From Halomicronema sp. CCY15110 (GTDB lineage Bacteria; Cyanobacteriota; Cyanobacteriia; Phormidesmidales; Phormidesmidaceae): a stretch of DNA of 40,178 nucleotides. This document shows, piece by piece, positions 10,242-34,114 of this stretch. Location of the stretch: contig NZ_JACSWC010000217.1 of assembly GCF_016888165.1 (NCBI RefSeq), forward strand, positions 1-40,178, written 5' to 3'. Position 1 is the first letter of the stretch, and every line of letters begins with the position of its first letter. The notes below the pieces were generated by a model, which was given only the letters and a program-made list of their open reading frames with translations, did not search any database and was not told where the DNA came from. The translations under genes were made by a program, and so were the position numbers.

Positions 10242-13200
10242 GTTTCCATTCAATTGGTTTCTCTAACAAGTAGAGACTAAAATTGGCGCTGGTCGGTCTG
10301 AGCGATTGCTTCTGGGTTTCCATTCAATTGGTTTCTCTAACAAGTAGAGACCGTCAAGCGGTTTGACCCTGACGGCAGTAGCTATATCGAGTTTCCATTC
10401 AATTGGTTTCTCTAACAAGTAGAGACACGTCAAGATTTAGGAACCGTTTGGGTAGAAATTCCTGTTTCCATTCAATTGGTTTCTCTAACAAGTAGAGACT
10501 CCTTAGTACAGGGCCAATCTTGCAGTGCGGGCTCGTTTCCATTCAATTGGTTTCTCTAACAAGTAGAGACTATGAAATTTCCCTTTATAACAACGAGTTA
10601 ATTTCCGTTTCCATTCAATTGGTTTCTCTAACAAGTAGAGACTTACCTAAATTCCCTAGAAGATTCTGAACCGAAGGGGTTTCCATTCAATTGGTTTCTC
10701 TAACAAGTAGAGACCCAAGCAGGTCAACTGACTGGCAAGGCATCGGTATCTCGTCGTTTCCATTCAATTGATTTCTCTAACAAGTAGAGACCATGCCTAT
10801 TATTCCGCTAACGCAAAAGAAAGTTAAAGGTTTCCATTCAATTGGTTTCTCTAACAAGTAGAGACTCGTTGGGTAATCGGAGACGCAAGCAGTTTATCTA
10901 GGTTTCCATTCAATTGGTTTCTCTAACAAGTAGAGACCTGAGAGCGGTTCGCGCCGCCTGCGATTATCTGGGAAGTTTCCATTCAATTGGTTTCTCTAAC
11001 AAGTAGAGACTCACCTCGTTACTGTGTGACCTCGCTGGCCCGGTGGAGTTTCCATTCAATTGGTTTCTCTAACAAGTAGAGACGTCTTGGGTTTCACTAC
11101 TTCGCTATTATTCCACTTAGTTTCCATTCAATTGGTTTCTCTAACAAGTAGAGACCTACAGCCAAAGACAAGCAGCGAGAGTCCGTTGAGGAGTTTCCAT
11201 TCAATTGGTTTCTCTAACAAGTAGAGACACAAGTGCTGATCCGCCACATGGCTAAATTTCTGAATCAGTTTCCATTCAATTGGTTTCTCTAACAAGTAGA
11301 GACTGAGGAGGAAGTTGGCTATAAGCTAAACCCGAAAACCATTTGTTTCCATTCAATTGGTTTCTCTAACAAGTAGAGACTTGAGCATACGTTGCAGGCG
11401 CTGGAGATTGATCACAAGTTTCCATTCAATTGGTTTCTCTAACAAGTAGAGACGGATCTTTATGCTTGCTGGAGCCACAATAGGCATTTTTGTTTCCATT
11501 CAATTGGTTTCTCTAACAAGTAGAGACTCCCGAACATCTAAAATACTGGCGAACTGCTATTAAGCAAGTTTCCATTCAATTGGTTTCTCTAACAAGTAGA
11601 GACATGTGCCAAAATCATCGACGGTTGAATCAGGCGATGTGAGTTTCCATTCAATTGGTTTCTCTAACAAGTAGAGACTTAGCAAAGGAGAACGACGATG
11701 AACCCATACACACCAAGTTTCCATTCAATTGGTTTCTCTAACAAGTAGAGACTCCAAAAAACCCGTCAGTTTCTCGTGAACGATGCAAGGGTTTCCATTC
11801 AATTGGTTTCTCTAACAAGTAGAGACTTCACTTTCTTACCGAGATTGCCATAAACATTTCCGGTTTCCATTCAATTGGTTTCTCTAACAAGTAGAGACAG
11901 GAATTGTCAGAACTGGCTAAAGAGATTTACGGTAAAGTTTCCATTCAATTGGTTTCTCTAACAAGTAGAGACGCTAGACGAAGATTTACTTGATTATGGC
12001 GTTGATGTGTTTCCATTCAATTGGTTTCTCTAACAAGTAGAGACACTATCACAGAGTCAGGCGTAATGTCGGGGTTCAGTTTCCATTCAATTGGTTTCTC
12101 TAACAAGTAGAGACCGAAAACTGCGATTGGAATACGGCCCGTCAGCCCCAGTTTCCATTCAATTGGTTTCTCTAACAAGTAGAGACAATTACGGAAAAGA
12201 CTGCTATTGCTTTGATGCGCCCAGAAGTTTCCATTCAATTGGTTTCTCTAACAAGTAGAGACCTATAATCGTGAGCTATTGATCGACTGGTATCAAAACC
12301 AGGTTTCCATTCAATTGGTTTCTCTAACAAGTAGAGACAGTACGTGCCCGCCGGTACCGGCACCCAGTTCCAGCCGTTTCCATTCAATTGATTTCTCTAA
12401 CAAGTAGAGACCCATCTGGCGCTGGAATATCAGCAAGAAACGGAGCGGCGTTTCCATTCAATTGGTTTCTCTAACAAGTAGAGACGGATTCGAGTTTGTC
12501 GATCAGATTGTCTGTGAGGGTGAGTTTCCATTCAATTGGTTTCTCTAACAAGTAGAGACCCGCGCAGACTTCGACAAAAAGTATCAATCGATGGGTTTCC
12601 ATTCAATTGGTTTCTCTAACAAGTAGAGACTTGAACTTTGCTTGGCAGAATCTAGCCTAGACATCCTCAGTGAGTTTCCATTCAATTGGTTTCTCTAACA
12701 AGTAGAGACTTGTAAAAGTCCTGCTGCAGTAGCTAAAGAAGCTCCGTTTCCATTCAATTGGTTTCTCTAACAAGTAGAGACTTCAAATACCTCCACCGAA
12801 AAAGAGCGCAATCAAGAGTTTCCATTCAATTGGTTTCTCTAACAAGTAGAGACGTAAATGCCCACGCTTCTATCCAGCCTCAACTAGAAACGTTTCCATT
12901 CAATTGGTTTCTCTAACAAGTAGAGACCCCTGCAATACTATTTCACTCAGAAGAACGTCGAAGTGTTTCCATTCAATTGGTTTCTCTAACAAGTAGAGAC
13001 TGATGATACCCGGTGGAGTGCCACGATTCGACTAGTTTCCATTCAATTGGTTTCTCTAACAAGTAGAGACATGGCGTCTTGTTGCCCCATGCGGAAGTCT
13101 CAAGCCTTGAGTTTCCATTCAATTGGTTTCTCTAACAAGTAGAGACTTTTCTATAAATTTTTCGACACTGAGGTTATACAACGAGTTTCCATTCAATTGG

Positions 13201-15261
13201 TTTCTCTAACAAGTAGAGACCTACGAACTGCAACACACCCGCGAATGCCTCCAGCAGTTTCCATTCAATTGGTTTCTCTAACAAGTAGAGACCTTGTAGC
13301 AGTGTTAATCTTGTGGTTAATTACACTAATGTTTCCATTCAATTGGTTTCTCTAACAAGTAGAGACTGGGCCGGATGGATGGCAAATACTTGATTGAGCA
13401 GGTGAGTTTCCATTCAATTGGTTTCTCTAACAAGTAGAGACTCGATAATTTTCCTGGTGCCCAGTTGACCGCCAACGGTTTCCATTCAATTGGTTTCTCT
13501 AACAAGTAGAGACTTATAACAAAGGTAAATATACGCTTCGGGAATATCAAAGTTTCCATTCAATTGGTTTCTCTAACAAGTAGAGACTTGAGGGTTTAGT
13601 CCCCGATGTACTTACTGAGATTCAGTTTCCATTCAATTGGTTTCTCTAACAAGTAGAGACACAAAATCATGAAGGAACCTCGGGATTGCGGTACGTTTCC
13701 ATTCAATTGGTTTCTCTAACAAGTAGAGACGCGGCTTAGGTGGTGGCGGTACCGCAGATGTCTCTAAGTTTCCATTCAATTGGTTTCTCTAACAAGTAGA
13801 GACCGAACGGCGATTTGTCGCTAACTGACGACGCCACGATGTTTCCATTCAATTGGTTTCTCTAACAAGTAGAGACTTGTTGGGCGATGGGGACAGCGGG
13901 GCGTAAAACAAGTCCGCGTTTCCATTCAATTGGTTTCTCTAACAAGTAGAGACGCGTAGCAATTTTGCAAGCGCCGATCGCGCAGGGGTTTCCATTCAAT
14001 TGGTTTCTCTAACAAGTAGAGACGCGGAAGCTCTTCACGGGCTCTTGAGATTTATATAGAGTTTCCATTCAATTGGTTTCTCTAACAAGTAGAGACTTCC
14101 AAACGGCGGCATTTTATCGGTTTCTTTTTACAAGTTTCCATTCAATTGGTTTCTCTAACAAGTAGAGACGACGCTGACCGAGCAGCGTTGTGCGGTTTTT
14201 ATCGTGAGTTTCCATTCAATTGGTTTCTCTAACAAGTAGAGACTTACGCGGAATAAGTACCGACCATCAGTGGCGGCATTAGTTTCCATTCAATTGGTTT
14301 CTCTAACAAGTAGAGACCTCGTGTTTAGGAGGTCTTGAGACCGCCAAGGTTACTCAGTTTCCATTCAATTGGTTTCTCTAACAAGTAGAGACCCAAAAAG
14401 AACCGCCGCCGCCATCGTCGCATCTGTAGTTTCCATTCAATTGGTTTCTCTAACAAGTAGAGACATAAAGCATTTTTCATCGCCCCTTTTGATTTGACTA
14501 TGTTTCCATTCAATTGGTTTCTCTAACAAGTAGAGACTTGACCTGGGCACCGCGAGACAGTTCAATGCGTTTCGAGTTTCCATTCAATTGGTTTCTCTAA
14601 CAAGTAGAGACTTGACGTTTCTCAATACCTGAGATTCTAACCTCAAGTTTCCATTCAATTGGTTTCTCTAACAAGTAGAGACCCAAGACGCGCAAAGGGT
14701 TGTGGGAACATCTAACCGAAGTTTCCATTCAATTGGTTTCTCTAACAAGTAGAGACAAAGTAATGCCTGACAAACCCCACACCAAATCAGGTGTTTCCAT
14801 TCAATTGGTTTCTCTAACAAGTAGAGACATAACGGGCAGTTGCAAGCGGCGATTTCTCAGGAGTTTCCATTCAATTGGTTTCTCTAACAAGTAGAGACCA
14901 AGAAGCCAGTCGCTTCGATCACCTAATCATTTACAGTTTCCATTCAATTGGTTTCTCTAACAAGTAGAGACTCGTCTAGCGTGGCTTCGCTATTCAGATA
15001 GACCGTGAGGTTTCCATTCAATTGGTTTCTCTAACAAGTAGAGACGTCGCTTCTTTCCAGCTTTGCAGAGTTTGCGTCAAGTTTCCATTCAATTGGTTTC
15101 TCTAACAAGTAGAGACTAATTATTAAATAGGGTACCACTGGTTAAAGTACTGGTTTCCATTCAATTGGTTTCTCTAACAAGTAGAGACTCACCGTTGATG
15201 GTGATCCGTATCGCATCGACTTTTCGTTTCCATTCAATTGGTTTCTCTAACAAGTAGAGAC
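10242..15261 (-). CRISPR. CRISPR array: 69 repeats of 36 bp, 68 spacers
   Basis: I located 69 repeat starts by hand from 10242 to 15226, spaced 70-79 bp, leaving spacers of 34-43 bases. On the plus strand the repeat begins GTTTCCATTC and ends AAGTAGAGAC. Read on the minus strand it begins GTCTCTACTT and ends GAATGGAAAC, the usual crRNA 3'-end style, so transcription is taken as leftward from the cas2 side. TCTCTA and TAGAGA inside the repeat form a 6-bp hairpin with a 5-base loop. Only repeats 8 (10756) and 30 (12376) differ, both G to A at base 16. Neither end repeat is degenerate. Short frames predicted across the repeats are artefacts. Confidence 0.98.
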
Positions 15262-15457: not shown

Positions 15458-15736
15458 TCAAATGATGGTCGAGGCAGGAAATTCAGTGAGCGGAGAACCA
15501 CACCAAATTTCGATCTGTTCGACTGTGTGCCCAGAGATAGGATAAACCCGAAAACCATCCTCTTCAGGATCGATTAACTTGAGCAAGCGCTGCCGCATTT
15601 CCCGATACTTTTTGGCCGGAAGTCGGCATTCAAACACACTGTATTGCACCCGCCGACCATAGCCTTCCAAAATATCAGACACCTTTTTGCGACGACGATT
15701 GCAGGGAATGTCATAGGTTACCAAATACAACAACAT
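15458..15736 (-). CDS. cas2: CRISPR-associated endonuclease Cas2
   Basis: A 92-residue protein with the Cas2 ferredoxin fold signature: LLYLVTYDIP with the catalytic aspartate D9, then RRVQYSVFECRL. The start is placed at the ATG at 15736, with GGGGGCGC just upstream. A TTG four codons earlier is possible. Cas2 dimers bridge Cas1 dimers in spacer integration. It follows cas1 by 12 bp on the same strand and lies next to the leader. Confidence 0.93.
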   Translation of the reverse strand: MLLYLVTYDIPCNRRRKKVSDILEGYGRRVQYSVFECRLPAKKYREMRQRLLKLIDPEEDGFRVYPISGHTVEQIEIWCGSPLTEFPASTII

Positions 15737-15748
15737 ATGCGCCCCCAA

Positions 15749-16738
15749 TTAACGAATGCGATAAGCAGCATAGGTATCATCAGGCCGTTGTAAGCAACGG
15801 ATAAACGCCTTGATCTGTTGTTTGAGCAACGCCCAGCGGACATCTTCACCATTCTCGGTTTGCACCGTTTCGTGCATTCGGGTCAAAAACGCCTGCAAAT
15901 ATCGCCGCCGCCCCGAATGATTGAGGTAGCAGGCATCAGGCTGGAAATCAAAATCTTCCTCCACTTTGAGAATGTGATGATTGACCAAATACAGCATGAG
16001 CGAATCGACAATGGGAGCGCGAAACTGCTCTAACAAATCAGACGCCAGGGCCGGATGGCGGGGTGAGGGCTGATGCAGACAAGCCCGGTAAGCATCTAAC
16101 CCTTGATTTTCGATCGCAAACAGCACATGACTCCACAACACCTGGTAACCAAAACTCAGCACCGCATTGACCGGATCTTTGGGCGGTCGCCGCGATCGCT
16201 CAGTAAAGGTAAAGTCGGAGTTAGTCAGACAGCGCCCCAGCGCCGGAAAATAAGCCGCTGCCCCCGCCCCCTCAAACCCCAATACTTGAGGAATCGTCTG
16301 CGCGGTCAAAGCCCGTTCAGCCAATTCATCTAAACTGGCGATCGCCGAGGCGAGGTCGGCTTGTGGTAGACGACGTTGCTGGCGTTGTAGCAGCACCCGA
16401 GAGTTAAGGAGTTTGGCCCCCACCAGTTGCTGCGCTACCCGGAGCCGGGCCGCCTCTGGTAAGACATATTGCAGCTCGACCAGCGCATAAGCCGCCTGGT
16501 CAACGGGCATGAGCCGACCGTAGCAGCGCCCCATGTGAGACAAATATGCCAGTGGAATCTGCCGCTGTAAACAAGATTGAATCACCGACGTAGTGACTTG
16601 GGAACGGCCAAAAATCAGGATTTGCTCTAACAGCGGCAATTGAATGCGGTCAACCACATCCTCCCGCAGTTGGACTAAGACAGTTTCTTGGCGCAGGGTG
16701 AGTTGGCATCCCTGCTGAGAGATGTAAAGCGATCGCAC
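15749..16738 (-). CDS. cas1: CRISPR-associated integrase Cas1
   Basis: A 329-residue Cas1 starting at a GTG preceded by AGGAGG. Conserved sites are visible: E156 in GFEGAGAAAYF, H222 in ACLHQPS, and D234/E237 in ASDLLEQFR, the metal-binding residues of the integrase. It is not fused to a reverse transcriptase or Cas6, unlike some type III Cas1 proteins. With Cas2 it inserts new spacers at the leader-proximal repeat. A 422-bp gap separates it from the CARF genes upstream, so cas1-cas2 may have its own promoter. Confidence 0.95.
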   Translation of the reverse strand: MRSLYISQQGCQLTLRQETVLVQLREDVVDRIQLPLLEQILIFGRSQVTTSVIQSCLQRQIPLAYLSHMGRCYGRLMPVDQAAYALVELQYVLPEAARLRVAQQLVGAKLLNSRVLLQRQQRRLPQADLASAIASLDELAERALTAQTIPQVLGFEGAGAAAYFPALGRCLTNSDFTFTERSRRPPKDPVNAVLSFGYQVLWSHVLFAIENQGLDAYRACLHQPSPRHPALASDLLEQFRAPIVDSLMLYLVNHHILKVEEDFDFQPDACYLNHSGRRRYLQAFLTRMHETVQTENGEDVRWALLKQQIKAFIRCLQRPDDTYAAYRIR

Positions 16739-17160: not shown

Positions 17161-18630
17161 TTACGGCTCGTAGGTGGCGATCGCCTGTTGCAGTTGGGGA
17201 TGCATTTGCATCAGCAAACTAGCTTCCGCGAGGGATGTTGCCGATTTGCCCGTCAGTAAGTTGAGACAGTTGACCATACGCCGCTGCCAGTCAGTCAGAG
17301 TCTGAATGTCGCGCCCCCAGGCCGCCAACAGTTCCCGCTCGGAGAGACCACCCAAGCGATGCGATAAGGCATTACGCTGGTTGCGATTGTCTTGACTCCA
17401 AAAGTTACGCATGTCGATGCTCTGGCCGACTGCGGGCAGGGCCGCTTCTAGGACGAGCTGCTGGTTGTACCCATTCAGGTTAATCGACGCGAGCGGTTCC
17501 CCGGTGCGACGATTTTCAAAGGCTTCGGCCAGACTGGGATAGGCTACTACAATACTTTGCTGCAACTGGGGATAACGCTGGGGTGGATAGATAATATGCT
17601 CGGGAATGTGGATCTCTAACCACAGCCAAATCGCCCCCTCAATGGCGCGAAAGCTGTGAAGCATCGCCTCCGCCGTATTTTCTTGATAAAGCCGAATGAC
17701 GGCGAGTTGTGCCTGCTCGTAGGCCATCCACCAGGGGAGCTGTTCAGGCTGACCGTTAGTCGCTCCCACACTTTTGAGCCGTTGATAAAAGGTATGAAAT
17801 TCACCCCGGTTCCACGCCATGCCCGCCTGAAGCCAGGTGGGCACTGCGCCAAAGTTCCCCGCATCTTGTTGAATGTAAGGTTGCAGCACCTCGGCAGCCC
17901 CAGCATAGTCATAGCGGTCTAGCAGGGTGAGGGCCTGCTGTTGCGCCCGATTCCACAAGTAGTAGGTGCCCGCAAAGGGGCCAGTGTAGTCTGAGGGAAG
18001 GCCCTGACGATTGCGATCGCGGCGCTGCTGAAATTCAAAAAACTGGATGCGATCGCCGTAACGGCTCAGGCCCGAAATGCGTCCCGACTCAGAGGTTTGG
18101 CCGACGCCCCCTTTAATGCAGAGCCAGATAGGAGCGGTGCTGTCGGCATTCACGAGGGTGGGCCAAGTACGCTGCCACCAACGAAACATGGCTTCAAAGT
18201 CGCTGGGGTTGGTGCCATCAGTACCTAACCGCACAATTTCGACGTTGATGTGAGGATGCTGCTGGACAAACCAGTCTTGAAAAAGCTGGCAGGCGTAGAG
18301 GGTATCTTTATCCCGCTGGCTCACGGTGGCGGGCTGATCGGTGCCGATCAAATACACCTGATCGATGTCGGTGGCCCGGTCGCGAAAGAGCTGACCAGTG
18401 ATCACAGGACGAATGCGCGATCGGTAGTCATCAATGTGCGTTGCCAGAAACTGGGTCAAATCGCGAAAGGTGAGCAGATCTTGCCCTAGGTCGGCAAGCA
18501 CTTCGGCCTGCTCGCCGATAAAGGTGCCCCGGAGCTGGTCGTCGCCGATGTTGTACCAGTCGCCAGACTGGGTTTGGAACATTAGGTCGCGGGTGCCGAT
18601 CGTGGCAATCAGGGTGGCAGGCATGGGCAA
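17161..18630 (-). CDS. CARF-HEPN RNase (Csm6/Csx1-like), copy 2
   Basis: A 489-residue protein. The N-terminal Rossmann-like part starts ATLIATIGTRDLMFQ and later has PIWLCIKGGVGQTSE, a pattern of CARF sensor domains that bind cyclic oligoadenylate. The C-terminal helical region ends in a HEPN motif R419-N-A-L-S-H424, the R-x4-H catalytic pair of metal-independent RNases. In known type III systems such proteins are switched on by cyclic oligoadenylate from Cas10 and cut RNA non-specifically. It lies 61 bp after its paralogue with the same architecture. Subfamily and ligand size (cA4 or cA6) cannot be read from the sequence. Confidence 0.8.
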   Translation of the reverse strand: MPMPATLIATIGTRDLMFQTQSGDWYNIGDDQLRGTFIGEQAEVLADLGQDLLTFRDLTQFLATHIDDYRSRIRPVITGQLFRDRATDIDQVYLIGTDQPATVSQRDKDTLYACQLFQDWFVQQHPHINVEIVRLGTDGTNPSDFEAMFRWWQRTWPTLVNADSTAPIWLCIKGGVGQTSESGRISGLSRYGDRIQFFEFQQRRDRNRQGLPSDYTGPFAGTYYLWNRAQQQALTLLDRYDYAGAAEVLQPYIQQDAGNFGAVPTWLQAGMAWNRGEFHTFYQRLKSVGATNGQPEQLPWWMAYEQAQLAVIRLYQENTAEAMLHSFRAIEGAIWLWLEIHIPEHIIYPPQRYPQLQQSIVVAYPSLAEAFENRRTGEPLASINLNGYNQQLVLEAALPAVGQSIDMRNFWSQDNRNQRNALSHRLGGLSERELLAAWGRDIQTLTDWQRRMVNCLNLLTGKSATSLAEASLLMQMHPQLQQAIATYEP

Positions 18631-18691: not shown

Positions 18692-20233
18692 CTAGGCTTG
18701 CAGTTGCTCGATACCCCAATGGTAAAGGTCTTGGAGGAGGGAGCGATCGGGCATGGGGCGATCGGGCGGGCAGAATTGTTGAAGGAAATCCTCAGCTCGT
18801 TGATAAAACGTGTCTGGATTTAAGTCGGATTCATCAATCTCCAGCCACTTACCAAAATCAGCCGGAGCAATAGCTTCATTACGGTGAACAACGTCATTAC
18901 GAGCATCATTCATTGACTCTAGTTTTTTAATGATTGGATCCTTTTCAGGAAGTTGGCATTTCAACCGCCATCCTTGACGTAGATCCCAAAAAGTAGCCTT
19001 GTATTTCTTGACGCCCCAATTGCATTTGTTTTCTGGTGGTGTCACATAGCCTTGACTGATCCAGTCTTCGTATCGATAACACCAGAAAAGTAACCGCTCT
19101 ATCACTTGCACAAATTGGAGAAAAGCTGAGGTGTAGCTTTGGCGGTTTAGGTTGATATGGATTAGTAAACGTGATTCCCAAATGCTAAGATAGCGCCCTT
19201 CTGGAGTCTGCTTATCGATAGGTTTGCAGAGAATCTCAATATCCTTCAGCCACTGCCTACGGATGTCAGAATCAACATTGCGCTTTGTGGTTGACTGGTT
19301 GAGCCAGTCCTGTAACTTTTTGAGCGCATCTTGCAGTTGCCAGTTGATTGCTAAGGCTAGGTGTCCAGCGAGGTCATAAACGGCCTGGTAGCGATCGCGG
19401 TGGGCCGATAGCCAAACCCTAGCCTCAGCAAAATCCCCTCGTTCCCAAGCAGAGAGAATTCGCTCTCGCTCGACAGGCCAAAAATACTCTCCCAAATTCA
19501 CCGTATTAAATCCAGTTGCCATCCGGGTTTGGCTGAGTTTTGCATCTGCATCTGTAACCTCAAACAGCGGATTAGGTTCAATTGGAATCACCTGCTCAAC
19601 CGTGCATTGCCGCATCAAAGCAGCCGCACAAATTTCTAAACTGTTAGCAATTTGAGGCGCTGACCCTTTGGTTTGAATTTGGAGGGTCAGGGGTTCATCC
19701 ACTGTGGTATCTAAAAACTTGAGAGCATAGGTCACTAAAAAGCCTTGTAGATGCTGTTGAATGGCGGCAACTTGATTGACCGCTACAACGGGATTCCAGA
19801 CTTGAATTTGCAAGTCAGGGTAGGACTGTTGCAGTTTGCCCGCCATGAGTTTGGCAAGCCAACAGGTATCGCCCCGTCGAAAACTCCAGGCAGTTCCTTC
19901 CAGCTGATCGGTGCCCCATAAAATGACTTCTGTTAAACCATTTTGAATTTGCGATTCTATAATCCCTTCGTCCATTGGTAAGACGACGGCGCTAAAGTCT
20001 TGCCGTTGTTCACAGTAGCGATAGATCAGTTCTCCCAGGTGACGAGCTGCCCAGCGATATTCGGGTTTGGCCTCAGGGCTGTGGTAGCCGCGCTGGTGGT
20101 CAAATTCAGCGTAAAGTTGGTCAATATGGGGTGGGTAGCCGCGATCACCATCGGCTCCCAGACTCCGCACAATACCATCTTGACAACGCCAGCCGACTTG
20201 GCGGGTACCTACGGTGATTATTAAAGTCTGCAT
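18692..20233 (-). CDS. CARF-HEPN RNase (Csm6/Csx1-like), copy 1
   Basis: A 513-residue protein with the same layout as its neighbour. The N-terminus reads TLIITVGTRQVGW, and a second sensor element LQIQTKGSAPQIANS lies near 200. A long helical middle (about 260-400) follows, then HEPN with R445-N-D-V-V-H450. The two proteins are diverged beyond this plan, so they may respond to different ligands or form different dimers. The gene starts 7 bp after the HEPN toxin-like gene, which suggests that the MNT, HEPN and CARF genes share a transcript. Confidence 0.8.
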   Translation of the reverse strand: MQTLIITVGTRQVGWRCQDGIVRSLGADGDRGYPPHIDQLYAEFDHQRGYHSPEAKPEYRWAARHLGELIYRYCEQRQDFSAVVLPMDEGIIESQIQNGLTEVILWGTDQLEGTAWSFRRGDTCWLAKLMAGKLQQSYPDLQIQVWNPVVAVNQVAAIQQHLQGFLVTYALKFLDTTVDEPLTLQIQTKGSAPQIANSLEICAAALMRQCTVEQVIPIEPNPLFEVTDADAKLSQTRMATGFNTVNLGEYFWPVERERILSAWERGDFAEARVWLSAHRDRYQAVYDLAGHLALAINWQLQDALKKLQDWLNQSTTKRNVDSDIRRQWLKDIEILCKPIDKQTPEGRYLSIWESRLLIHINLNRQSYTSAFLQFVQVIERLLFWCYRYEDWISQGYVTPPENKCNWGVKKYKATFWDLRQGWRLKCQLPEKDPIIKKLESMNDARNDVVHRNEAIAPADFGKWLEIDESDLNPDTFYQRAEDFLQQFCPPDRPMPDRSLLQDLYHWGIEQLQA

Positions 20234-20627: not shown

Positions 20628-20965
20628 AGCAAAATACCTTCTTGCTGTACATTTCGATAAAGCTGAGTGGTACCTGCGGCAAACTCTGACTGACTCGCTG
20701 GTTTAACTGAAATCCAATGGCTGGATTCTAGTTGCAGGGGGTAGAGCAAATCCACTAGTGCATACAACTCTTGGAAGTAGTTAATGGGAGGCTTCAACAC
20801 AACTAGCAAATCCAAATCGCTACTAGAGTGAAAGGTTTGTCGTGCAGTTGAGCCAAAGAGAATGACGGATTGGAGGCGAGAACCATAGTGTTTAGCTAGC
20901 ACTTCCTTGCAGGCAGCAAGGGTTTCAGCAATGGCTGATGGAAGTGGCGGTTGAGTCGTTTTCAT
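20624..20965 (-). CDS. minimal nucleotidyltransferase (MNT), antitoxin-like
   Basis: A 113-residue protein of the MNT/pol-beta superfamily. The catalytic motif GS-x10-DxD is exact: G38 S39 in LFGSTARQ and D50, D52 in SSSDLDLLVVL. It probably modifies or blocks its HEPN partner. It is the first gene after a 145-bp gap, so it likely begins a new unit with HEPN and the two CARF genes. Confidence 0.85.
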   Translation of the reverse strand: MKTTQPPLPSAIAETLAACKEVLAKHYGSRLQSVILFGSTARQTFHSSSDLDLLVVLKPPINYFQELYALVDLLYPLQLESSHWISVKPASQSEFAAGTTQLYRNVQQEGILL

Positions 20966-21110: not shown

Positions 21111-22028
21111 TCAATCAATGTAGGCAATAGTCGTATCTCTGATTTTGCAAGGATAAGGAGCAGTATGGTCTTGCAAGAGATCAAACCCGCGACCAATCGC
21201 TATTTCAGCCTGATCAGTTCGTAGGAATCTATCATGGGCGTAGTGAGAATTAAGTTTTACTCCAAAGCCAGGATGTAAGCTTTTCATTTCTTGTTCAAAG
21301 GCATGTAAAAAATCTGGTCTCTGTACTTGATGTATATGCAATTCAAAGAGTCCATCATGTGGTGGACGAGAATATTTTTTGAATACATTAAGCAGCCATT
21401 TGATGGTGGCTATATATCCAGAATTATTATGACAGTACCGCCCCATTTGCTTGTCCAATAGAAACACATTTTCAGTACTTCTAAAGAGTGGTATTAAGAT
21501 CTTCTCCTCGAAATCTTGTTGTGTCCATCCCTCCAAACTACAAAATCCCCGCAAATCGGCCCATCTCTGGAAATCTTGATTATGGTCATACACATCAATT
21601 TTGATGACTTGAGTTTCTTCAACTCCAGATAAATGATCGCCTGCACAATTAAAACAGTTCTGATCCGTAATCAAAAATTCCGGCTTTTGCGACTGGGCAA
21701 TCTCAAAATACTTGTGACAGGAGACTGATGCACAGTCTAAATCCTGAGGTTCAGATGAAGTTGTCAATAGACGATTTTTTTGTTCTAAAACTCTTAGTAG
21801 TCTATTTAAATCGCTTCCTGCTTGAACTCCTTCAATGAAATTCTCTAAATCATTCCATTTCTGAGTCGATAATCTAAGTTGTTTTAAAATCTCACCTTGA
21901 TCATCTATTAAAATGGTGCCAGATTTACACACATCTCTTAAGAACCGACATAAGGAATTGTACAAAGATTCTTCTTTTCCAGAAACAGGTTCAAATGCCG
22001 AGTTAAATACAACTGCTTGAAACAACAT
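21111..22028 (-). CDS. unknown protein with C-terminal MIT_C-like (PLD-fold) domain, paired with AAA ATPase
   Basis: A 305-residue protein starting 2 bp after the ATPase gene stop, last in the cmr operon. Near the C-terminus it reads AHDRFLRTDQAEIAIGRGFD (264-283). This resembles the HDR...GRGLD pattern I recall from the MIT_C domain of eukaryotic MITD1, a phospholipase-D-like fold, and its bacterial relatives in conflict systems. The N-terminal 100 residues include an acidic patch, ILIDDQGEILKQL (39-51), that could belong to a nuclease-like fold such as PIN, but this is weak. Five cysteines cluster at about 99-150. I know no named Cas protein of this shape. It may be an effector or adaptor controlled by the ATPase. 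Confidence 0.55.
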   Translation of the reverse strand: MLFQAVVFNSAFEPVSGKEESLYNSLCRFLRDVCKSGTILIDDQGEILKQLRLSTQKWNDLENFIEGVQAGSDLNRLLRVLEQKNRLLTTSSEPQDLDCASVSCHKYFEIAQSQKPEFLITDQNCFNCAGDHLSGVEETQVIKIDVYDHNQDFQRWADLRGFCSLEGWTQQDFEEKILIPLFRSTENVFLLDKQMGRYCHNNSGYIATIKWLLNVFKKYSRPPHDGLFELHIHQVQRPDFLHAFEQEMKSLHPGFGVKLNSHYAHDRFLRTDQAEIAIGRGFDLLQDHTAPYPCKIRDTTIAYID

Positions 22029-22030
22029 GA

Positions 22031-24106
22031 TTAACCAAATACCTCCTCAATATCTTCTTCAAAGAAGCCATGAGGCCACTTGTCAATAAACTTACCTTTA
22101 TCGTTCAGCCTCAGTTGCAAACATACTGAACCTTCTTCAGTCCGATCAACATACAACACCGCAACCTCATCTGGTTTTAGTTTGCCCTCTCGAATTCGTC
22201 GTTGTAGCCTCAGCATCAAGTGCTCACTGTGGGTCTCCACAATGAAACGATTGCCGAAATCTCTCACGGAGTCTATAAAGAGATCGCCCAGTTCAGTTTG
22301 TAGTCGGGGATGAATATGGACTTCTGGCTGCTCAATGAAAATAGTTTGATCACGGGCAAACAGACTTTGAATGATGACGGGTAGCACTTGGCTAACCCCA
22401 AAACCGACATCCAGCAAACTCACATTGGTCTTGAAAAAACTATCCACCAAGCGAATCGCATAAATATCACTGGTTTCAGTGGTATCTTGATCTTGGAATG
22501 AAACAACTTTCACCTCATGACCAATTTTGAAGGTTTCGAGGGCTTGATTCACTCTTGCTAGAAAAGACGCATCCTCAAACAAGAGGTCTGAAGATCCTTT
22601 TCCTGATTTTCCTACTTGTTTGGTCGATTTACCGCTGAACAAATAGAACCGCTCTGGATAGTCTCGCATTGGGCCTAAATACACAGACTGTCTTAGAAAA
22701 CCCTGTAACAAGCCACCTGCGTAGAATGTATTTTCAATAAGAAGCTGAACGGCTCCTAGCCCCTCGTAGACTCCCATGAAAAAATGAGTGCTGATCTCTG
22801 ATGATTCTTCTGATGAATTTTCCGTTGCTAAGTCAGGCAATTTTATGTTCGATTCAAAGGGGAGAAACTTGCTAACGAGTATAAAGGTACTGACCTTTAC
22901 AACCTGTCTATAATCTTTGAGGGCTTGCTCCAGGGAACAGCCACTAAAATGTTGCCAAAGACTTTTGAGTGACTCAATGCTTACAATGGCTTGAGATAGT
23001 TGTTCCGCTTGATTTTGAGTCGCGATATCTTGCTGTTCAGTTTCCTTGATTTGAGCTTCATAATCTGCCTTTAATTCAGTCAGTGGTCTTTGTTCTTCGT
23101 AATGTTTAACTTGCAGTTGAACCCACTGATCCCAGATAAGCTGACCAGTTGTAAATTCAGCCATCTGCTCCCCAGTGAGGTTTTCAGGAATTTGGTTGCG
23201 CTCAAAAAATGGGGTGGGGTCAAGCTGTAAGCGATCACCTAGTTTGCGTGAAAGATTGCCTAGTTCTTCCTTTAATGGCTTTTCTACAGATTCCTGCTGA
23301 GATTTTAATGCCATTAACTGCTGATCAGCATCTTTTATCTGGTGTTCAAGCTGGTCTAGTTGTTGCTTGAGCGACTCTAGTACAACTTGACTGCTTGCCA
23401 ATTGTTCAGATAGTGATAATTTTCGGGCCTCTAGTTCTTCAATCGTATTGGCTCGGTCACGACTATTAATTTGTGAGATACCGTAGTGCTCAAGAGTAAT
23501 ATTGAGTTGGTTGAAGACTCGGTTGGGCAAAACTAGGCTGTACTCTTGCCACCAGGTTTGCCAGAAAGAATGCTGTGGGTGAAGTTCACTCACCTTCAAG
23601 CCTTGGTCAGTTTTCTCGTAGGTGATAACGGGGTACTCATCCTGACCCAGCCAAAGCTGGACGCGCTGGAGGGCGATATCCGATCGAATGGACTCCACGG
23701 AAAACGTCAATTCCAGGGCAAGGGTGGGAAATTCCTGAAGTTGACTGTAGAGGAATTTGTAAATGCGTGAGAGCGTATCCGATAGCTCATCTAGGGCTTC
23801 GGGAGGCGTGATATCCTCTGAGTCAGCATCCAGTTGCACTTTGATAGAAACCTGGCGATCAATGTCATGTAAATGGACGAATTCTCGATAGTTCCCCAAG
23901 TCAACGAGCTTGCCCTGAGGGAGGAGGACTACACTGTCATCTTCGGCCTCCTCTATGGTTTGCTTTAACAACATCAAGGATTGGATGATGGAGCTTTTTC
24001 CAGCAGAGTTGGGGCCATAAAGCAGGGTGATCGGTCGGATTAATAGCGGGGCTGCATCGGCAAATGCCTTAAAATCTTTTAGTTGGTATTCTTTCAACAT
24101 ACTCAT
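22031..24106 (-). CDS. AAA/ABC-type ATPase with coiled coil (DUF3696-like)
   Basis: The start is placed at the ATG in TAATG at 24106, coupled to the upstream cmr gene; a GTG three codons earlier is possible. In the 691-residue protein the Walker A is LLYGPNSAGKSS (about 29-40), and a long coiled coil spans about 215-375. The C-terminus has the signature GFGVSQVLP, Walker B IFIEQPEVHIHP and the switch VETHSEHL. The end WPHGFFEEDIEEVFG is typical of DUF3696 proteins. Such SMC/RecN-like ATPases often pair with a nuclease in defence systems (Septu, retron and OLD types). Here the partner is the MIT_C-like gene. Placement inside the cmr operon suggests a type III accessory function. Confidence 0.8.
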   Translation of the reverse strand: MSMLKEYQLKDFKAFADAAPLLIRPITLLYGPNSAGKSSIIQSLMLLKQTIEEAEDDSVVLLPQGKLVDLGNYREFVHLHDIDRQVSIKVQLDADSEDITPPEALDELSDTLSRIYKFLYSQLQEFPTLALELTFSVESIRSDIALQRVQLWLGQDEYPVITYEKTDQGLKVSELHPQHSFWQTWWQEYSLVLPNRVFNQLNITLEHYGISQINSRDRANTIEELEARKLSLSEQLASSQVVLESLKQQLDQLEHQIKDADQQLMALKSQQESVEKPLKEELGNLSRKLGDRLQLDPTPFFERNQIPENLTGEQMAEFTTGQLIWDQWVQLQVKHYEEQRPLTELKADYEAQIKETEQQDIATQNQAEQLSQAIVSIESLKSLWQHFSGCSLEQALKDYRQVVKVSTFILVSKFLPFESNIKLPDLATENSSEESSEISTHFFMGVYEGLGAVQLLIENTFYAGGLLQGFLRQSVYLGPMRDYPERFYLFSGKSTKQVGKSGKGSSDLLFEDASFLARVNQALETFKIGHEVKVVSFQDQDTTETSDIYAIRLVDSFFKTNVSLLDVGFGVSQVLPVIIQSLFARDQTIFIEQPEVHIHPRLQTELGDLFIDSVRDFGNRFIVETHSEHLMLRLQRRIREGKLKPDEVAVLYVDRTEEGSVCLQLRLNDKGKFIDKWPHGFFEEDIEEVFG

Positions 24107-26100
24107 TAGTTCCACGGGAAAATTTGGGCATAGTGCCCGCGGGCTTGTCGTTGCAATTCCTTCAGATAGTGCCGACGTGGATCCTGGGTAGATCCAAATA
24201 CGGTGACTACCTGATAATCGCCCAGATCGGCAATCCAGACTGGGGAAGGTTTCACACCGCCCTGCACTTGGCCACAGAGGTTGCCATCATAGTCAATCTG
24301 CCCGCGCCGATTCTGAACCTTAAAATCTTGGCTATGCAGAGTTGCTAAAGCATAGGGCTTGCCAAAATCCTCATCGCCCGCACACACCACAATGCAACTA
24401 TTTGCGTCCACTGCCTCCGGCCATTGCTCCTGACTGACTCGCCCAGCTTCTAACAATTGACGCAGATTAATGGGGCGATCAGCCACTCGGCCTAACGCAT
24501 CATAAAATTCCTGAAGTCTATTTTGAAAAAGGCGTTGAAATCCAGCAATATCTTCCGGCAAATTCCAGAACGTATCATTGCTGTCTGGAATCACCGTTGA
24601 GCCTCTCCACCAGGGGGCACGCTCTCGGCTTTTACGTGAGTAGCAAGGTCGCCTCGCTCCCTGGCCTAGCCCTCCTAGGTGAAACATCATCCAGGTCAAG
24701 GTTTTGAGCAGTGCTTCTAAATTTCTTCTTTGGTTGAGGGGAGCTTCTGAGGAATAGGCCAAAATCAAGCGGCCTGATTGTTCTCCACAAGGATCATGTT
24801 TACCCTGGGTATTAGGCCGAGCTTCCCGTTGCACCACCCGACCATCGGCAATTCTTACCGACACCCAGCCGCGCACCTGTTGAGGGTTAATAGCTCCAAA
24901 CAACTGCCCCTCTAGCCGCTGTACCTCGCGACTGGGCAATACACCCAGGGCAAAGGCGCGAAACCAGTAGCGCAACATCGACTTAAAAGCGACTGGCCGC
25001 ACTTCAGCATCAGGATTACCTCGCATTTGCCACTCATTGCGGCGATCGTTCCAATTCCACTGGGTAAACTTTTGCCGCCCATGAATGAGTTGCCCTTCTA
25101 AGGTGAAGTCCACATTCAAGAACTCATCCCCAGAGGTTTTCTGCCCTGCTCTGACTAAGTTGCCATAGCCCGTATTCACCTGGGAACCAATTCCGGCGGC
25201 TAGTCCTCGACTGAGCCATTGTTTGACTTTTGCCAGGGTTTCGTCGTCTCCCTGACGGGTAGAGCGTAGACCAATTAAAAAAGTTGCTTCATTCAGCGAA
25301 TAAAAAGGATTGGGATTAGGAGAATACAGTAAGTCTCGACCAGCAGCATCCCAAGACCAAATGCTATTGGCCATGTCAACAGCTAGTCCAGCACCCTGCC
25401 CAGATTGTTGAGGCAGTGGGTAAGCATCTAGGAAAATGACCTTGCCCGATCGCTCTTCACTATTTTTACTATCCAGGTAGCCAAAATATTGGCGGGCTAC
25501 CGCTTCCTCAGCCCGTTTCCAAGACAGCCCTTCTTGCTCTATGAGTTCACGAATGGCTTGAGTGCGGGCGACACCCCGGAGCGTGCTGGCGGGAATATAA
25601 GGCATTCCCAACGCATCAAAGGCCGGTAGCAAAATGCTCTCTGGCCCTCGGTGACCACCGACGCGAATGCGCCAGAGACATCTGACCTGAAATGTATTGT
25701 TTTCCCCGGCAATTAGCTTAGTGCGATTGGTCAGGGTAGTGAGGCGATCGCGGTAGTTGGCGTTCTCCTCCGCCATTTGCAGGATCTGCACTTTGGTAGC
25801 GTCTTTGGTGCCATCCTCTTTTTGGTAGGCGCGCATCCATCGCAAATACTCCACAAAGCTGGCTTCAGGAATCGGATTAGGGTTGGGGTCGGCAGGGTGC
25901 TGCAACCACGGAGAGGGAACATCGCCATTGCCACCGCAATTGCCGCTACCGCCCGCGCCGCGATTGTCTCCACTACCGCGATTACCCCCACCTACAGTAA
26001 TCACCTTCTTGGGCTTACCCGATTGAGCACGGGAACCGGGTTGGTTGGTCGCTGGACTCGATTTCCCAGAACTTGGTCGCTTGGGACGTTCAAATACCAT
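24106..26100 (-). CDS. cmr6: fused Cmr6-Cmr1 RAMP protein
   Basis: A 664-residue protein with two RAMP units. After a low-complexity Gly/Asn-rich start (to about 60), residues 155-315 match Cmr6: PYIPASTLRGVAR (167-179), VIFLDAYPLP (221-230) and GIGSQVNTGYG (303-313). Residues 365-490 match Cmr1: SMLRYWFRA (374-382), EGQLFG (397-402) and the Gly-rich loop GGLGQGARRPCYSR (476-489). Cmr6 and Cmr1 cap the backbone and read the 3' part of the crRNA and target. No separate cmr1 is present, so the fusion supplies both. It starts 3 bp after cmr5 and ends in a TAATG overlap with the ATPase gene. Confidence 0.8.
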   Translation of the reverse strand: MVFERPKRPSSGKSSPATNQPGSRAQSGKPKKVITVGGGNRGSGDNRGAGGSGNCGGNGDVPSPWLQHPADPNPNPIPEASFVEYLRWMRAYQKEDGTKDATKVQILQMAEENANYRDRLTTLTNRTKLIAGENNTFQVRCLWRIRVGGHRGPESILLPAFDALGMPYIPASTLRGVARTQAIRELIEQEGLSWKRAEEAVARQYFGYLDSKNSEERSGKVIFLDAYPLPQQSGQGAGLAVDMANSIWSWDAAGRDLLYSPNPNPFYSLNEATFLIGLRSTRQGDDETLAKVKQWLSRGLAAGIGSQVNTGYGNLVRAGQKTSGDEFLNVDFTLEGQLIHGRQKFTQWNWNDRRNEWQMRGNPDAEVRPVAFKSMLRYWFRAFALGVLPSREVQRLEGQLFGAINPQQVRGWVSVRIADGRVVQREARPNTQGKHDPCGEQSGRLILAYSSEAPLNQRRNLEALLKTLTWMMFHLGGLGQGARRPCYSRKSRERAPWWRGSTVIPDSNDTFWNLPEDIAGFQRLFQNRLQEFYDALGRVADRPINLRQLLEAGRVSQEQWPEAVDANSCIVVCAGDEDFGKPYALATLHSQDFKVQNRRGQIDYDGNLCGQVQGGVKPSPVWIADLGDYQVVTVFGSTQDPRRHYLKELQRQARGHYAQIFPWN

Positions 26101-26103
26101 TTC

Positions 26104-26496
26104 CTATTTTCCTACTTCAATGCCAACGTAAACTGCTGCAGCCCAAAAGCTGAATTCTTGGGCGATCGCTAGGCCTAAACCAGTCAAGCCAAGATAGACA
26201 TCCGTATCCAGATTTTTAAGCGTTTCTAATCCATCCTTGCCAGCTAGGTTTTCCTGTTCGGAGATGGCTTCTAAACATTCAAAATATTTTTTGACTACCT
26301 GCTTCTTCCCTTCTTGACTTAGGGCTGTTTCCTCAGCCTTGAGCCGCATCAATCCCCAGGTCGAAAGATAGGTATATAGCTCAACGGCTTGGTTTTTCTG
26401 TTCCTTTAGTCGAGCATCATCCTGCCCTGGCAAGGTTCTGAGTCCTTGTAATGCCTCATAGACAGGTTTACCTATCGTGCGCGGATCAAATCCCAT
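26104..26496 (-). CDS. cmr5: type III-B small subunit Cmr5 (Cas11)
   Basis: A 130-residue all-helical protein between cmr4 and the large RAMP gene, with AGGAG eight bases upstream of its ATG. The pattern of two helical blocks ending LTGLGLAIAQEFSFWAA fits Cmr5, which lines the inner filament of the complex and contacts target RNA. Sequence conservation in this family is low, so order and size carry much of the call. Confidence 0.8.
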   Translation of the reverse strand: MGFDPRTIGKPVYEALQGLRTLPGQDDARLKEQKNQAVELYTYLSTWGLMRLKAEETALSQEGKKQVVKKYFECLEAISEQENLAGKDGLETLKNLDTDVYLGLTGLGLAIAQEFSFWAAAVYVGIEVGK

Positions 26497-26545: not shown

Positions 26546-27411
26546 CTAATTCGGGGCTAGCCAGGTTTGTACAAAACCGCGCCCAAGGCTTTCTTGCCCA
26601 CCAATTTGTAAAATCTCATGGTCAGAAAGCAGAGTCTTAAAGCTCTCCTTGGCATCATCCGCCTTACCGTTAGCCTGGGAAGTAATGCCCCAAGGGAAAT
26701 ACATCAGGGTATCGGGGGGAATAGCCTCTTCATAGCGGAAACCACCATCCACTGTTTTGTGCTCATCGAGTTTGACTTTGACTTGTCGCCAAAGCGCCAT
26801 TTGAATCAACGTGGCACAGTGTTTATCTGGCAACACCAGCACCCGTTCAATGCCCTTGGCTTCTTCAACCTGAGGGACGAAAATTTCCCAAGTATTCCAG
26901 TCTTTTAAGTCACTGGGTTTGAGAATGGCATCCTTGAGATAAACGGACTTTTGGCTATCCAGATTGGTACAGTAGTCGGTTGGGATTTCAGCTTCAATTT
27001 TGTTGAACTTTGCCCAGCGCCGCAGAAGTAGTGGGCTGCTGACCCAAATCACGCCGTGACTTAACGACGGCACTGGAACCCAGAGAATGGAAGCATCACC
27101 AATCCAGAGGTTACCTTGAACAAGCTGATTCAACTCTTTTGTTGTCGTTGTCTTATAGGCTGCGACCAGTGACGCATTCTTCTGATCATCAATCTCTGAA
27201 CCAAACAAAAAAATCTGTTCCAGCTTAGCGTCAATATCTGTTTTCTCAGAAGGTTCCATCGTGGCGCGTAGTCGCCCACGAATGGAGCTAGAGGGAATGT
27301 AGGGCAAATTAGTGTGGGATTCGCGGGCAATGCCCAATAGATTTCCTTCCTGGGTCGCACCGCCTGTGTGCAAGGGAGACAAGAGATAGAGATAAACCAA
27401 GTCTTCAATCA

Positions 27412-27412
<1 letters not shown>
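26546..27412 (-). CDS. cmr4: type III-B backbone subunit Cmr4 (Cas7), slicer aspartate apparently missing
   Basis: A 288-residue Cas7-type RAMP with SPLHTGG (12-18) and the loop PYIPSSSIRGRLR (37-49). Cmr4 copies form the filament and cut target RNA every six bases using an aspartate in a G-x-x-D-x-P-x-x-R-E stretch (D26 in Pyrococcus furiosus, from memory). Here the stretch reads GNLLGIARE (23-31), placing Leu25 at that site, with no acidic residue after E22 until E31. The subunit may bind but not slice. It overlaps the cmr3 stop as TAATG and is followed 49 bp later by cmr5. Confidence 0.88.
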
Positions 27413-31751
<4,339 letters not shown>

Positions 31752-32065
31752 GGTCGTGTGGTGCCCCCATCGCCTATGCGCGACCCGCGTCAAGTCGCAA
31801 CTTTGCCCAGTATGAATAATGCGCTTCGAAAATTGGAAATCTTAATGCGAATGACGAAAATCTAGCTACCCTTGAGTTCCCAAATCGAGATGCTATTGCG
31901 TCACCAGAGACATCTCTTTAGCTGGCTTTGTAAGTGTTTATAACTAGATACAGACCTTCACGTTCTACTGGTATCAAGGTCCAAGTTTTGACAATCGCAT
32001 GAAGAACCTTGTGCCTCAATGCTCCGCCCATAGAATTGAGATGTCGCTGGTTGAGACTTCACCGC
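31752..32065. promoter_or_regulatory. divergent promoter region between cmr operon and kinase-WYL gene
   Basis: About 314 bp separate the preferred starts of cmr2 (minus) and the kinase-WYL gene (plus). The promoters of both units should lie here. A TTGACA at 31988-31993 (plus strand) could be a -35 element, but no good -10 follows at normal spacing. On the minus strand AT-rich tracts near 31805-31860 and 31930-31950 are candidates. No strong inverted repeat was seen. WYL regulators often control divergent defence genes, so this is the natural operator location. Confidence 0.4.
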
Positions 32066-34114
32066 ATGGCCGACAACGTTCTCTGTCATATGCTCATAGG
32101 CCCTGCTGGGAGTGGTAAATCCACCCTGGCACAGCAAATGCAGCAGTGGTTTGCCCACAGTCACATCGTCTCGACTGATCGCATTCGTCGCGAGTTGTAT
32201 GGCGATGAGGCGCACCAGGGCCACTGGCCCGAAATTGAAGCGATCGCCCTGCGCCAGATTCACGATGCCGTAGCAGCAGGCCGCAGCGTCATTTACGATG
32301 CCACCAATGCCCGACGCCCTTGGCGAATGGCACTACTCACCCAACTCCAACCCTTTGCCCCATGCTGGGTCGGATGGCAATTAAAGACTCCGCTAAAAAC
32401 CTGCCATCAATGGAATCAACAGCGCGATCGCCAGGTGCCTACTGCTGTCATTAATGACCAGCACACCGCCTTACAACAGTTTCCACCACTCACGGCTGAG
32501 GGCTTTTGGGCGGTTTACTCCCTACCAGTCCCCCCGGCCATAGAGCAGATCGAGGCTGCCCTAAAGCGTCTGACACGGAGCCGCCAAAACCGACTGAACC
32601 GCACTCACCATCAGCAAATCACCTGGCATCGATATTCCACCCTGTTGGATTTTGACCGCCTCATGCACCTGATTAGTCTGCTAGTGCAATATCCAGGGTT
32701 GGGCGACTGGCATCACGCAGCACCAGAGAGGCTACAAACCTTAATCGGCTCCAGCGATCGCACCCTCACCACCGCCCTTGAGGAAATTGCCGTCGTGATG
32801 GCGCAGCAACGAGGAGCACTATACGCCGACGCACGACTCCTTGCCCAAGATTTAGCTTGGCTAGATACAAATGGTATCCTCAGCGTCACCCCAACTGACA
32901 CGCCCCTCGCTTATCCCCCAACCCCTCACGATCCGGTCAACCCTCATCCTTATTCCGACTGGGATGCCTTTCAGCGGTTATTGCTGACCATTCGGTTTAT
33001 CAGCCATCATCCGTTTCACTGGAATGCTGAACAAAAGAGTAGTCTCGACAGCCTCATAACTGAGATGCAGCGGCGAGAACTACTGATCGGTGAACATCAA
33101 GCCGCCATCCGCAAGGACTTTGAGCGGGTCCTCAAACCCTTTAGGATTTTGCCACCCTTTCGCCTACGACGTGGCTACTTTATCGGCACCGGAATCTTGA
33201 CGGAATCGGAGTTACTCCAAACGGCTAGCCTACTGCAAGCCCAGGCCAAAAATATTCAAGACCCCCTCGCCCTATCGCTGCTAGACACCCTTCAGCAACG
33301 TCTCCAGCGTAGCCAGCATGACTTAGACAGTCTGTATCCCGTGCGAGCGATCGCCAATCGCATGATCATCAACCCCGATTTACTCCCAGCGGAGTCTCTA
33401 GCGCGATATCCCGAAACCATTGCAGACGATATTGAAGCCGGACAATTGCTCGAACTCAAGCGTTATAGAGGCGTTGGACGCTTTGACGATGAGCCAGACG
33501 AGTTCTTCCGAGCGTGGCCCTTACAATTGGTTTTTCGCAACATTGCCTGGTATCTCAGTTATGAACTGGCCGATGGCCCCGAAGCCGGACTACTGCAATT
33601 TGAACGGTTAGATCGCTTATTTCGCGGCCTGCCGCAACCGCAACAGCGATCGCTAAGTGCCCAACGCCATAGTCTCCAACGCCTACACCGCCTCCAGAGT
33701 GCAGGGGGGGGACTGTATCTAGGCCGCTCTGTTCAGCTACAGCAACAGTTTTTGAGTACCGATCCAGAACAGCAAAAAGCCGCTTCAACACAGGTCGAAC
33801 TTTGGTGTACGGATAAAATCTTTGCCTTTATCAGTGAAGGTACTCAACGATTTCCGACAGACCAAATGCAAATGTCCGTCAGGCTGAATGGTCACCGATC
33901 TTCACACGACACCTTATTTTGTCTGCCTAAAAGTCAAGACCATCATTATCCCAATCGTCTGGTGCTGACCTTGCCGGTGTGGTCTTGTGAAGACATCGAT
34001 CTGCGACGGTGGATTATTGGCTTTGGGGCTGAAGTCAAAGTCATCGCCCCTCCAGAACTCCAACAGCAGATCGTTCACATTGCCCAAAAGCTCTCCGTAC
34101 TCTATCAAAACTAG
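32066..34114 (+). CDS. P-loop kinase-like domain fused to C-terminal WYL regulator domain
   Basis: The start is placed at the ATG at 32066 (MADNVLCHMLIGPAG); the longer frame uses a TTG. The 682-residue protein opens with Walker A GPAGSGKST (about 12-20) and VIYDATNARRPWR (about 75-87), typical of the AAA_33/polynucleotide-kinase-like family. The C-terminus contains AWPLQLVFRNIAWYLSYEL (about 483-501), the WYL core. It then ends in RRWIIGFGAEVKVIAPPEL, the WCX-type tail. WYL proteins sense nucleic acids or nucleotides and regulate CRISPR, BREX and CBASS loci. The middle (about 200-400) is unassigned, and I see no clear HTH. It may regulate the Shango genes 205 bp downstream or the divergent cmr operon. 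Confidence 0.75.
   Translation: MADNVLCHMLIGPAGSGKSTLAQQMQQWFAHSHIVSTDRIRRELYGDEAHQGHWPEIEAIALRQIHDAVAAGRSVIYDATNARRPWRMALLTQLQPFAPCWVGWQLKTPLKTCHQWNQQRDRQVPTAVINDQHTALQQFPPLTAEGFWAVYSLPVPPAIEQIEAALKRLTRSRQNRLNRTHHQQITWHRYSTLLDFDRLMHLISLLVQYPGLGDWHHAAPERLQTLIGSSDRTLTTALEEIAVVMAQQRGALYADARLLAQDLAWLDTNGILSVTPTDTPLAYPPTPHDPVNPHPYSDWDAFQRLLLTIRFISHHPFHWNAEQKSSLDSLITEMQRRELLIGEHQAAIRKDFERVLKPFRILPPFRLRRGYFIGTGILTESELLQTASLLQAQAKNIQDPLALSLLDTLQQRLQRSQHDLDSLYPVRAIANRMIINPDLLPAESLARYPETIADDIEAGQLLELKRYRGVGRFDDEPDEFFRAWPLQLVFRNIAWYLSYELADGPEAGLLQFERLDRLFRGLPQPQQRSLSAQRHSLQRLHRLQSAGGGLYLGRSVQLQQQFLSTDPEQQKAASTQVELWCTDKIFAFISEGTQRFPTDQMQMSVRLNGHRSSHDTLFCLPKSQDHHYPNRLVLTLPVWSCEDIDLRRWIIGFGAEVKVIAPPELQQQIVHIAQKLSVLYQN

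Follow-up and report, generated by a model that had tools for sequence, protein, structure and literature searches.

The stretch of DNA considered here (the window) comprises positions 1-40,178, forward strand, of contig NZ_JACSWC010000217.1 of the cyanobacterium Halomicronema sp. CCY15110 (GCF_016888165.1), i.e., 40,178 nt in all, and encodes a type III-B (Cmr) CRISPR system whose backbone subunit, Cmr4, is the main subject of this work. The locus forms a complete minus-strand operon, in the order Cas10, Cmr3, Cmr4, Cmr5, a Cmr6-Cmr1 fusion, accessory genes, two CARF-HEPN genes, Cas1, Cas2 and the CRISPR array (Table 1). All subunits of a type III-B effector (Cas10/Cmr2, Cmr3, Cmr4, Cmr5, Cmr6 and Cmr1) are found, with Cmr6 and Cmr1 fused. 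Both an HD motif and a GGGDD cyclase motif can be read in the Cas10 sequence, and the latter, together with the two CARF-HEPN genes, gives the locus the gene content of a type III system signalling through cyclic oligoadenylate (cOA).

Table 1. Features of the type III-B locus, with positions in the window
Feature	Positions	Strand	Evidence
cmr4 (Cas7 backbone), 288 aa, catalytic Asp deleted	26546..27412	-	TIGR02580, fold, alignment
codons 23-31 of cmr4, G-N-L-L-G-I-A-R-E loop (slicer Asp site in other Cmr4s)	27320..27346	-	alignment
cas10/cmr2, 1067 aa called from TTG	28590..31793	-	PADLOC PDLC02052, E 1.5e-289
cmr3 (Cas5-like)	27412..28593	-	Pfam Cas_Cmr3, E 9.1e-66
cmr5 (Cas11 small subunit)	26104..26496	-	PADLOC Cmr5, E 1.5e-63
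Cmr6-Cmr1 fused RAMP protein, 664 aa	24106..26100	-	PADLOC Cmr6 model over 101-652, E 4.4e-30; Cmr1 models over 364-484
CARF-HEPN (Csx1/Csm6-like), HEPN motif RNDVVH	18692..20233	-	PADLOC PDLC01805, E 7.4e-178
CARF-HEPN (Csx1/Csm6-like), HEPN motif RNALSH	17161..18630	-	PADLOC PDLC01795, E 1.9e-119
cas1	15749..16738	-	Pfam, E 2.9e-85
cas2	15458..15748	-	PADLOC, E 1.7e-26
CRISPR array, 69 repeats of 36 bases (67 exact), minus-strand repeat GTCTCTACTTGTTAGAGAAACCAATTGAATGGAAAC	10242..15261	-	
AAA (kinase-like) + WYL/WCX regulator-like protein, divergent from cas10	32009..34114	+	

The product of cmr4 belongs to the Cmr4 family by both sequence and fold: its TIGR02580 score is 127.7 bits, above the cut-off of 87 bits, and its AlphaFold2 model, with a mean predicted local distance difference test score (pLDDT) of 88, matches P. 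furiosus Cmr4 with a VIA-align Z of 22.5 over 230 residues. In Cmr and Csm complexes, cutting of the target RNA at six-base spacing requires an Asp, located in slicing Cmr4 and Csm3 proteins (Cas7 RNases) in the loop before an Arg-Glu pair. This Asp is absent from the window Cmr4. Its N-terminus contains SPLHTGGATQEGNLLGIARESHTNLPYIPSSSIRGRLR, where the canonical motif G-x-[IV]-D-L-P-I-x-R-E has become GNL-LGIARE, the Asp column being a one-residue gap between Leu25 and Leu26. HMMER and MAFFT agree on this placement. The missing residue falls exactly at the Asp when GAIDLPIARE of T. thermophilus Cmr4 is set against GNL-LGIARE, and HMMER alignment to the Cmr4 of P. furiosus and of DtCmr (entry 9arw) gives the same gap. 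The initial annotation, which had seen Leu25 in place of the conserved Asp, was thus right about the loss, but the residue is deleted rather than replaced; Leu25 precedes the gap, and even in an ungapped reading the third position after the Gly is Leu26. It was also right that the other features of Cmr4 are kept, namely His15, Arg30-Glu31, the Y-E-E thumb (227-229) and the G-rich loop (271-279), with Arg45 and Arg49 occupying the place of the crRNA (CRISPR RNA)-binding Lys. Fold, His, Arg-Glu, thumb and G-rich loop are shared with the canonical III-B Cmr4s of P. furiosus, T. thermophilus, B. fragilis and V. metoecus, which carry the slicer Asp that the cyanobacterial lineage lost by deletion.

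The closest described system is the type III-Bv system of Synechocystis sp. PCC 6803 (CRISPR3, on pSYSA), whose Cmr4, Sll7087, is 57% identical to that of the window and has the same Asp-free motif, HTGGTTQEGNLLGIARE. The two loci share the same effector genes, including the fused RAMP gene, and both this fusion and the Cmr4 clade place the window system within III-Bv. Their repeats share 29 of 36 bases, and a single base separates the two 13-nt tags (PMC3575380). Synechocystis CRISPR3 has no Cas6 of its own and its crRNA processing is Cas6-independent; in line with this, a search for PF10040 Cas6 that was positive in two control genomes found none in the Halomicronema genome. The window locus in addition holds three gene sets beyond those of Synechocystis CRISPR3: the two CARF-HEPN genes, an ATPase with a 305-aa partner, and a nucleotidyltransferase-HEPN pair.

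While the initial annotation treated the loss of the Asp as an oddity of one gene, it is an ancient, lineage-wide trait. Homologues were pooled from a contig search with alignment (79 loci, all cyanobacterial by title), related genomes, plasmids and 386 genomes drawn evenly from the phylum, giving 237 non-redundant Cmr4-like and Csm3-like proteins. All 212 cyanobacterial Cmr4-like proteins that fall into three motif clades (149 HTG..xxGN..GIARE, 44 GNLNLIFRD and 19 GGEGD.GN.L.IARE) have a gap at the Asp column, while in the same alignment run the Asp is kept in 10 canonical Cmr4s and 7 Csm3s. Five further divergent rows also have a gap. The last three proteins, from loci of the same phylum and another class (L216, L228 and L239), have Lys or Leu at this position, a possible separate loss of the slicer. 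Both sequencing error and chance are ruled out by the recurrence of the deletion in all 212 proteins.

The deletion itself, and nothing besides, would fit a decaying system in which it is a loss-of-function mutation. However, the same deletion is found class-wide, and across 78 loci compared at the codon level the stretch Q-E-G-N-L-L-G-I-A-R-E shows free synonymous variation with little or no change of residue. This is purifying selection rather than decay and, with the sharing of the deletion, rules out a pseudogene. Likewise, these loci keep full gene sets, the window has its 69-repeat array next to cas1-cas2, and Synechocystis CRISPR3 is highly expressed, with spacers that differ between strains (PMC3575380). 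For the lineage, decay is thus refuted by conservation and has practically no probability left.

In an IQ-TREE phylogeny of 63 proteins, one branch, with support of 100/100, parts the rows with the Asp from those without it, so that one change is enough. The root and exact order are unsure because long branches join precisely there, and a single loss of the Asp is the simplest reading of the tree. Within the same class, a single Cmr4 with the Asp was found (L174/L263); in its locus cmr1 and cmr6 are separate, as they are in canonical systems. A deep relative (L264, G200:C83) has an Asp-bearing Cmr4 beside a fused Cmr6-Cmr1, and the fusion may therefore predate, or be independent of, the Asp loss; this locus also shows that the fusion is not a strict cause or marker of the loss.

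The other components have been kept to different degrees. The full cas10-cmr3-cmr4-cmr5-RAMP set, with the RAMP gene in its fused Cmr6-Cmr1 form, is present in 56 of 56 long loci, and relatives of the two CARF-HEPN genes of the window are common beside them. The GGDD cyclase motif is intact in 71 of 73 Cas10 sequences, the remaining two being one substituted and one truncated. Of the same 73, only 45 retain an intact HD motif; it is altered in 25 others, and 3 do not extend over it. The cyclase is therefore under tighter selection than the HD nuclease, and slicing has been let go altogether. In L061, the one case of a complete Cas10 whose cyclase motif is substituted (SPSD instead of GGDD), the HD motif is altered as well. 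The GNLNLIFRD clade, a second cyanobacterial Cmr4-like clade without the Asp (within L133-L156 and L210-L250, e.g., L139:5956-6795), has Cas10 proteins of about 530-660 residues that keep GGDD, and the Cmr2-type HD motif is absent from them in every locus read; this clade would thus apparently have neither slicer nor DNase, but only the cyclase.

This pattern bears on the possibility that the lineage shifted from signalling immunity to DNA targeting, as proposed for types III-G and III-H. In both, as well as in type VII, Cas7 lacks the conserved catalytic Asp (PMC12669027), as in the lineage of the window; III-G and III-H keep the HD motif, which is also intact in the window Cas10. On the other hand, the cyclases of III-G and III-H are dead (PMC12669027) and type VII relies on the nuclease Cas14, whereas in the present lineage no catalytic site is better conserved than the cyclase motif, and it is the HD motif that is often lost. 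The window system, with its intact cyclase motif, does not have the inactive Cas10 cyclase of III-G/III-H, and a shift to DNA targeting is improbable.

Cmr4 might still slice with the help of another residue compensating for the Asp, e.g., Glu22, Glu31 or thumb Glu228/229. Among close relatives, 76 of 78 have Glu22, His15, Arg30-Glu31 and Y-E-E are retained, and slow cutting persists in the B. fragilis D27A mutant. The QAGN subclade, however, has Ala at position 22, most of the GGEGD clade has Leu and the NLIFRD clade has mainly Ser or Thr, and Glu31 and the thumb Glu also occur in Asp-bearing Cmr4s, in which mutation of the Asp alone abolishes cutting. Furthermore, in the QAGN subclade (L114, L116, L120, L125, L127, L128 and L131) there is no acidic residue at all from His15 to Arg-Glu, which excludes a replacement carboxylate from the loop there. 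The alignment of homologues that the initial annotation had proposed as a check therefore agrees with it: among the 212 proteins, no acidic residue consistently substitutes for the Asp. Slicing through another residue is accordingly rather unlikely, if a little less so than the move to DNA targeting.

How a complex of this kind would behave can be approached from mutants of other systems. In four other Cmr complexes, mutants of the Asp cut the target slowly or not at all, or behave as would be expected if they did so (PMC7192623; PMC8682760; PMC9368842; PMC10600005). The P. furiosus D26N change blocks cutting and leaves cOA synthesis and DNase activity intact (PMC7192623), and V. metoecus D26A abolishes target cutting (PMC8682760). 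As Asp mutants elsewhere cut less and GGDD is kept here, a complex that binds, signals and slices poorly is the best reading of these loci. We thus consider it likely that they represent a conserved cyanobacterial III-Bv lineage with its slicer off and its cyclase on, cutting little or not at all and relying on another off-switch. The initial annotation had proposed binding without cutting, followed by prolonged signalling. The loss of the Asp, the lack of an acidic substitute and the conserved GGDD make its first part, target RNA bound without fast cutting, likely; a longer-lasting signal in the cell is less certain. In S. solfataricus, the end of cOA synthesis correlates with target cutting (PMC6053304), and a long Cas10 on-time is expected of the V. 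metoecus Cmr with NucC, where target cutting is very slow (PMC8682760), as would be expected here. This complex, however, has the Asp and cuts slowly, whereas the window lineage lacks it, and it is little altered by D26A, which weighs against prolonged signalling, as do the slow-cutting D27A mutant and the other ways in which signalling could end.

In the scheme that we propose, a one-codon deletion would have removed the slicer Asp from Cmr4 in the III-Bv ancestor, and selection would then have kept the loop Asp-free. The complex would load crRNA and bind target RNA as usual, and the bound RNA would not be cut at six-base steps, or only very slowly. Target binding would activate Cas10 to produce cOA, which would switch on the CARF-HEPN RNases, and the HD nuclease may act too. 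Cas10 would finally be turned off by a route other than Cmr4, for which there are several candidates: self-limiting CARF domains or a ring nuclease such as Csx3 might break down cOA, HEPN or host RNases might degrade the bound transcript, Cas10 might act as an RNase as in Cmr-beta, or simple dissociation might suffice.

Several points weigh against this scheme. Although the predicted structure confirmed the fold, residues 18-24 of the loop are modelled with a pLDDT below 50, so that the geometry of the active site is not visible. In B. fragilis, the D27A change of Cmr4 slows cutting without abolishing it (PMC10600005). A slicer-dead Cmr4 is lethal in S. islandicus Cmr-alpha (PMC9368842) and a P. 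furiosus D26N strain could not be made (PMC7192623); with slicer loss lethal or unobtainable in two archaeal III-B systems, the cyanobacterial lineage must tolerate it or compensate for it. Finally, the Halomicronema genome yielded neither a Csx3 nor a Crn2 ring nuclease, although the searches for Csx3 and Csx16 were also negative in the control genomes.

Slicer loss is nevertheless tolerated in several Csm systems and in S. islandicus Cmr-beta, where an RNA-activated RNase linked to Cas10 may be what makes it tolerable (PMC9368842). This, and the frequency of CARF-HEPN genes in the loci studied here, would suit a variant in which the timer is the cutting of the bound RNA by another part of the machinery, be it Cas10, the HEPN effectors or the Cmr6-Cmr1 fusion. 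Such a variant shares the missing Cmr4 cutting with the scheme above and differs in its consequence, as the on-time would not be prolonged. The HD motif is, however, lost in many loci, and reading of the window protein sequence revealed no Csm3-type Asp motif in the Cmr6 part of the fusion; we regard a substitute timer of this sort as the most serious alternative, if a doubtful one. A ring nuclease was also considered as the switch that replaces slicing. Genomes with these Cmr4s have Csx3 more often (35 of 81, versus 15 of 113; Fisher p 4e-6), and in at least nine genomes it lies, by coordinates, within about 20 kb of cmr4. However, such an excess is expected of any type III partner and the searches described above yielded none in the Halomicronema genome, and this candidate was rejected.

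Other genes of the window surround or interrupt the operon. Relatives of the divergent protein that joins an AAA_33/polynucleotide-kinase-like domain to a WYL/WCX part occur in 32 of 56 loci, making it a candidate regulator. Between the effector and CARF genes (21111-24115) lie an OLD/AAA-like ATPase (694 aa, with a DUF3696 end) and its 305-aa partner, which weakly resembles a phospholipase-D-like MIT_C domain and is found in 0 of 56 related loci. A nucleotidyltransferase-HEPN pair, similar to MNT-HEPN toxin-antitoxin systems, lies within the CRISPR operon (20241-20965) and is likewise found in 0 of 56, and the Shango defence genes sngA, sngB and sngC adjoin the locus (34320-40109).

Cas7 target cutting is seen as a timer by which Cas10 is shut off and self-attack avoided; a dead slicer with a live cyclase as the fixed state of a large lineage looks new. 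The literature searched gave no statement that the III-Bv Cmr4 lacks the Asp, the main description of III-Bv lying outside its coverage, so that an earlier mention is possible. A class-wide natural loss of the timer residue would surprise specialists, its functional half being an inference. On balance, we lean, with somewhat less assurance than for the biochemical reading itself, toward one ancient loss of Cas7 slicing in a whole cyanobacterial III-B branch that kept its cyclase, so that cutting as a timer would not be universal. Whether type III immunity can run without this timer, and what replaces it, becomes directly testable in a large natural lineage that includes the model Synechocystis 6803 system, and a naturally uncutting, signalling complex would be of interest for building RNA sensors from Cmr. 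If this is true, signalling would be the only output of the NLIFRD clade, and a different off-switch would control a type III system that is common among cyanobacteria: a widespread III-B complex that probably detects viral RNA and sounds the alarm with no built-in timer of the usual kind.
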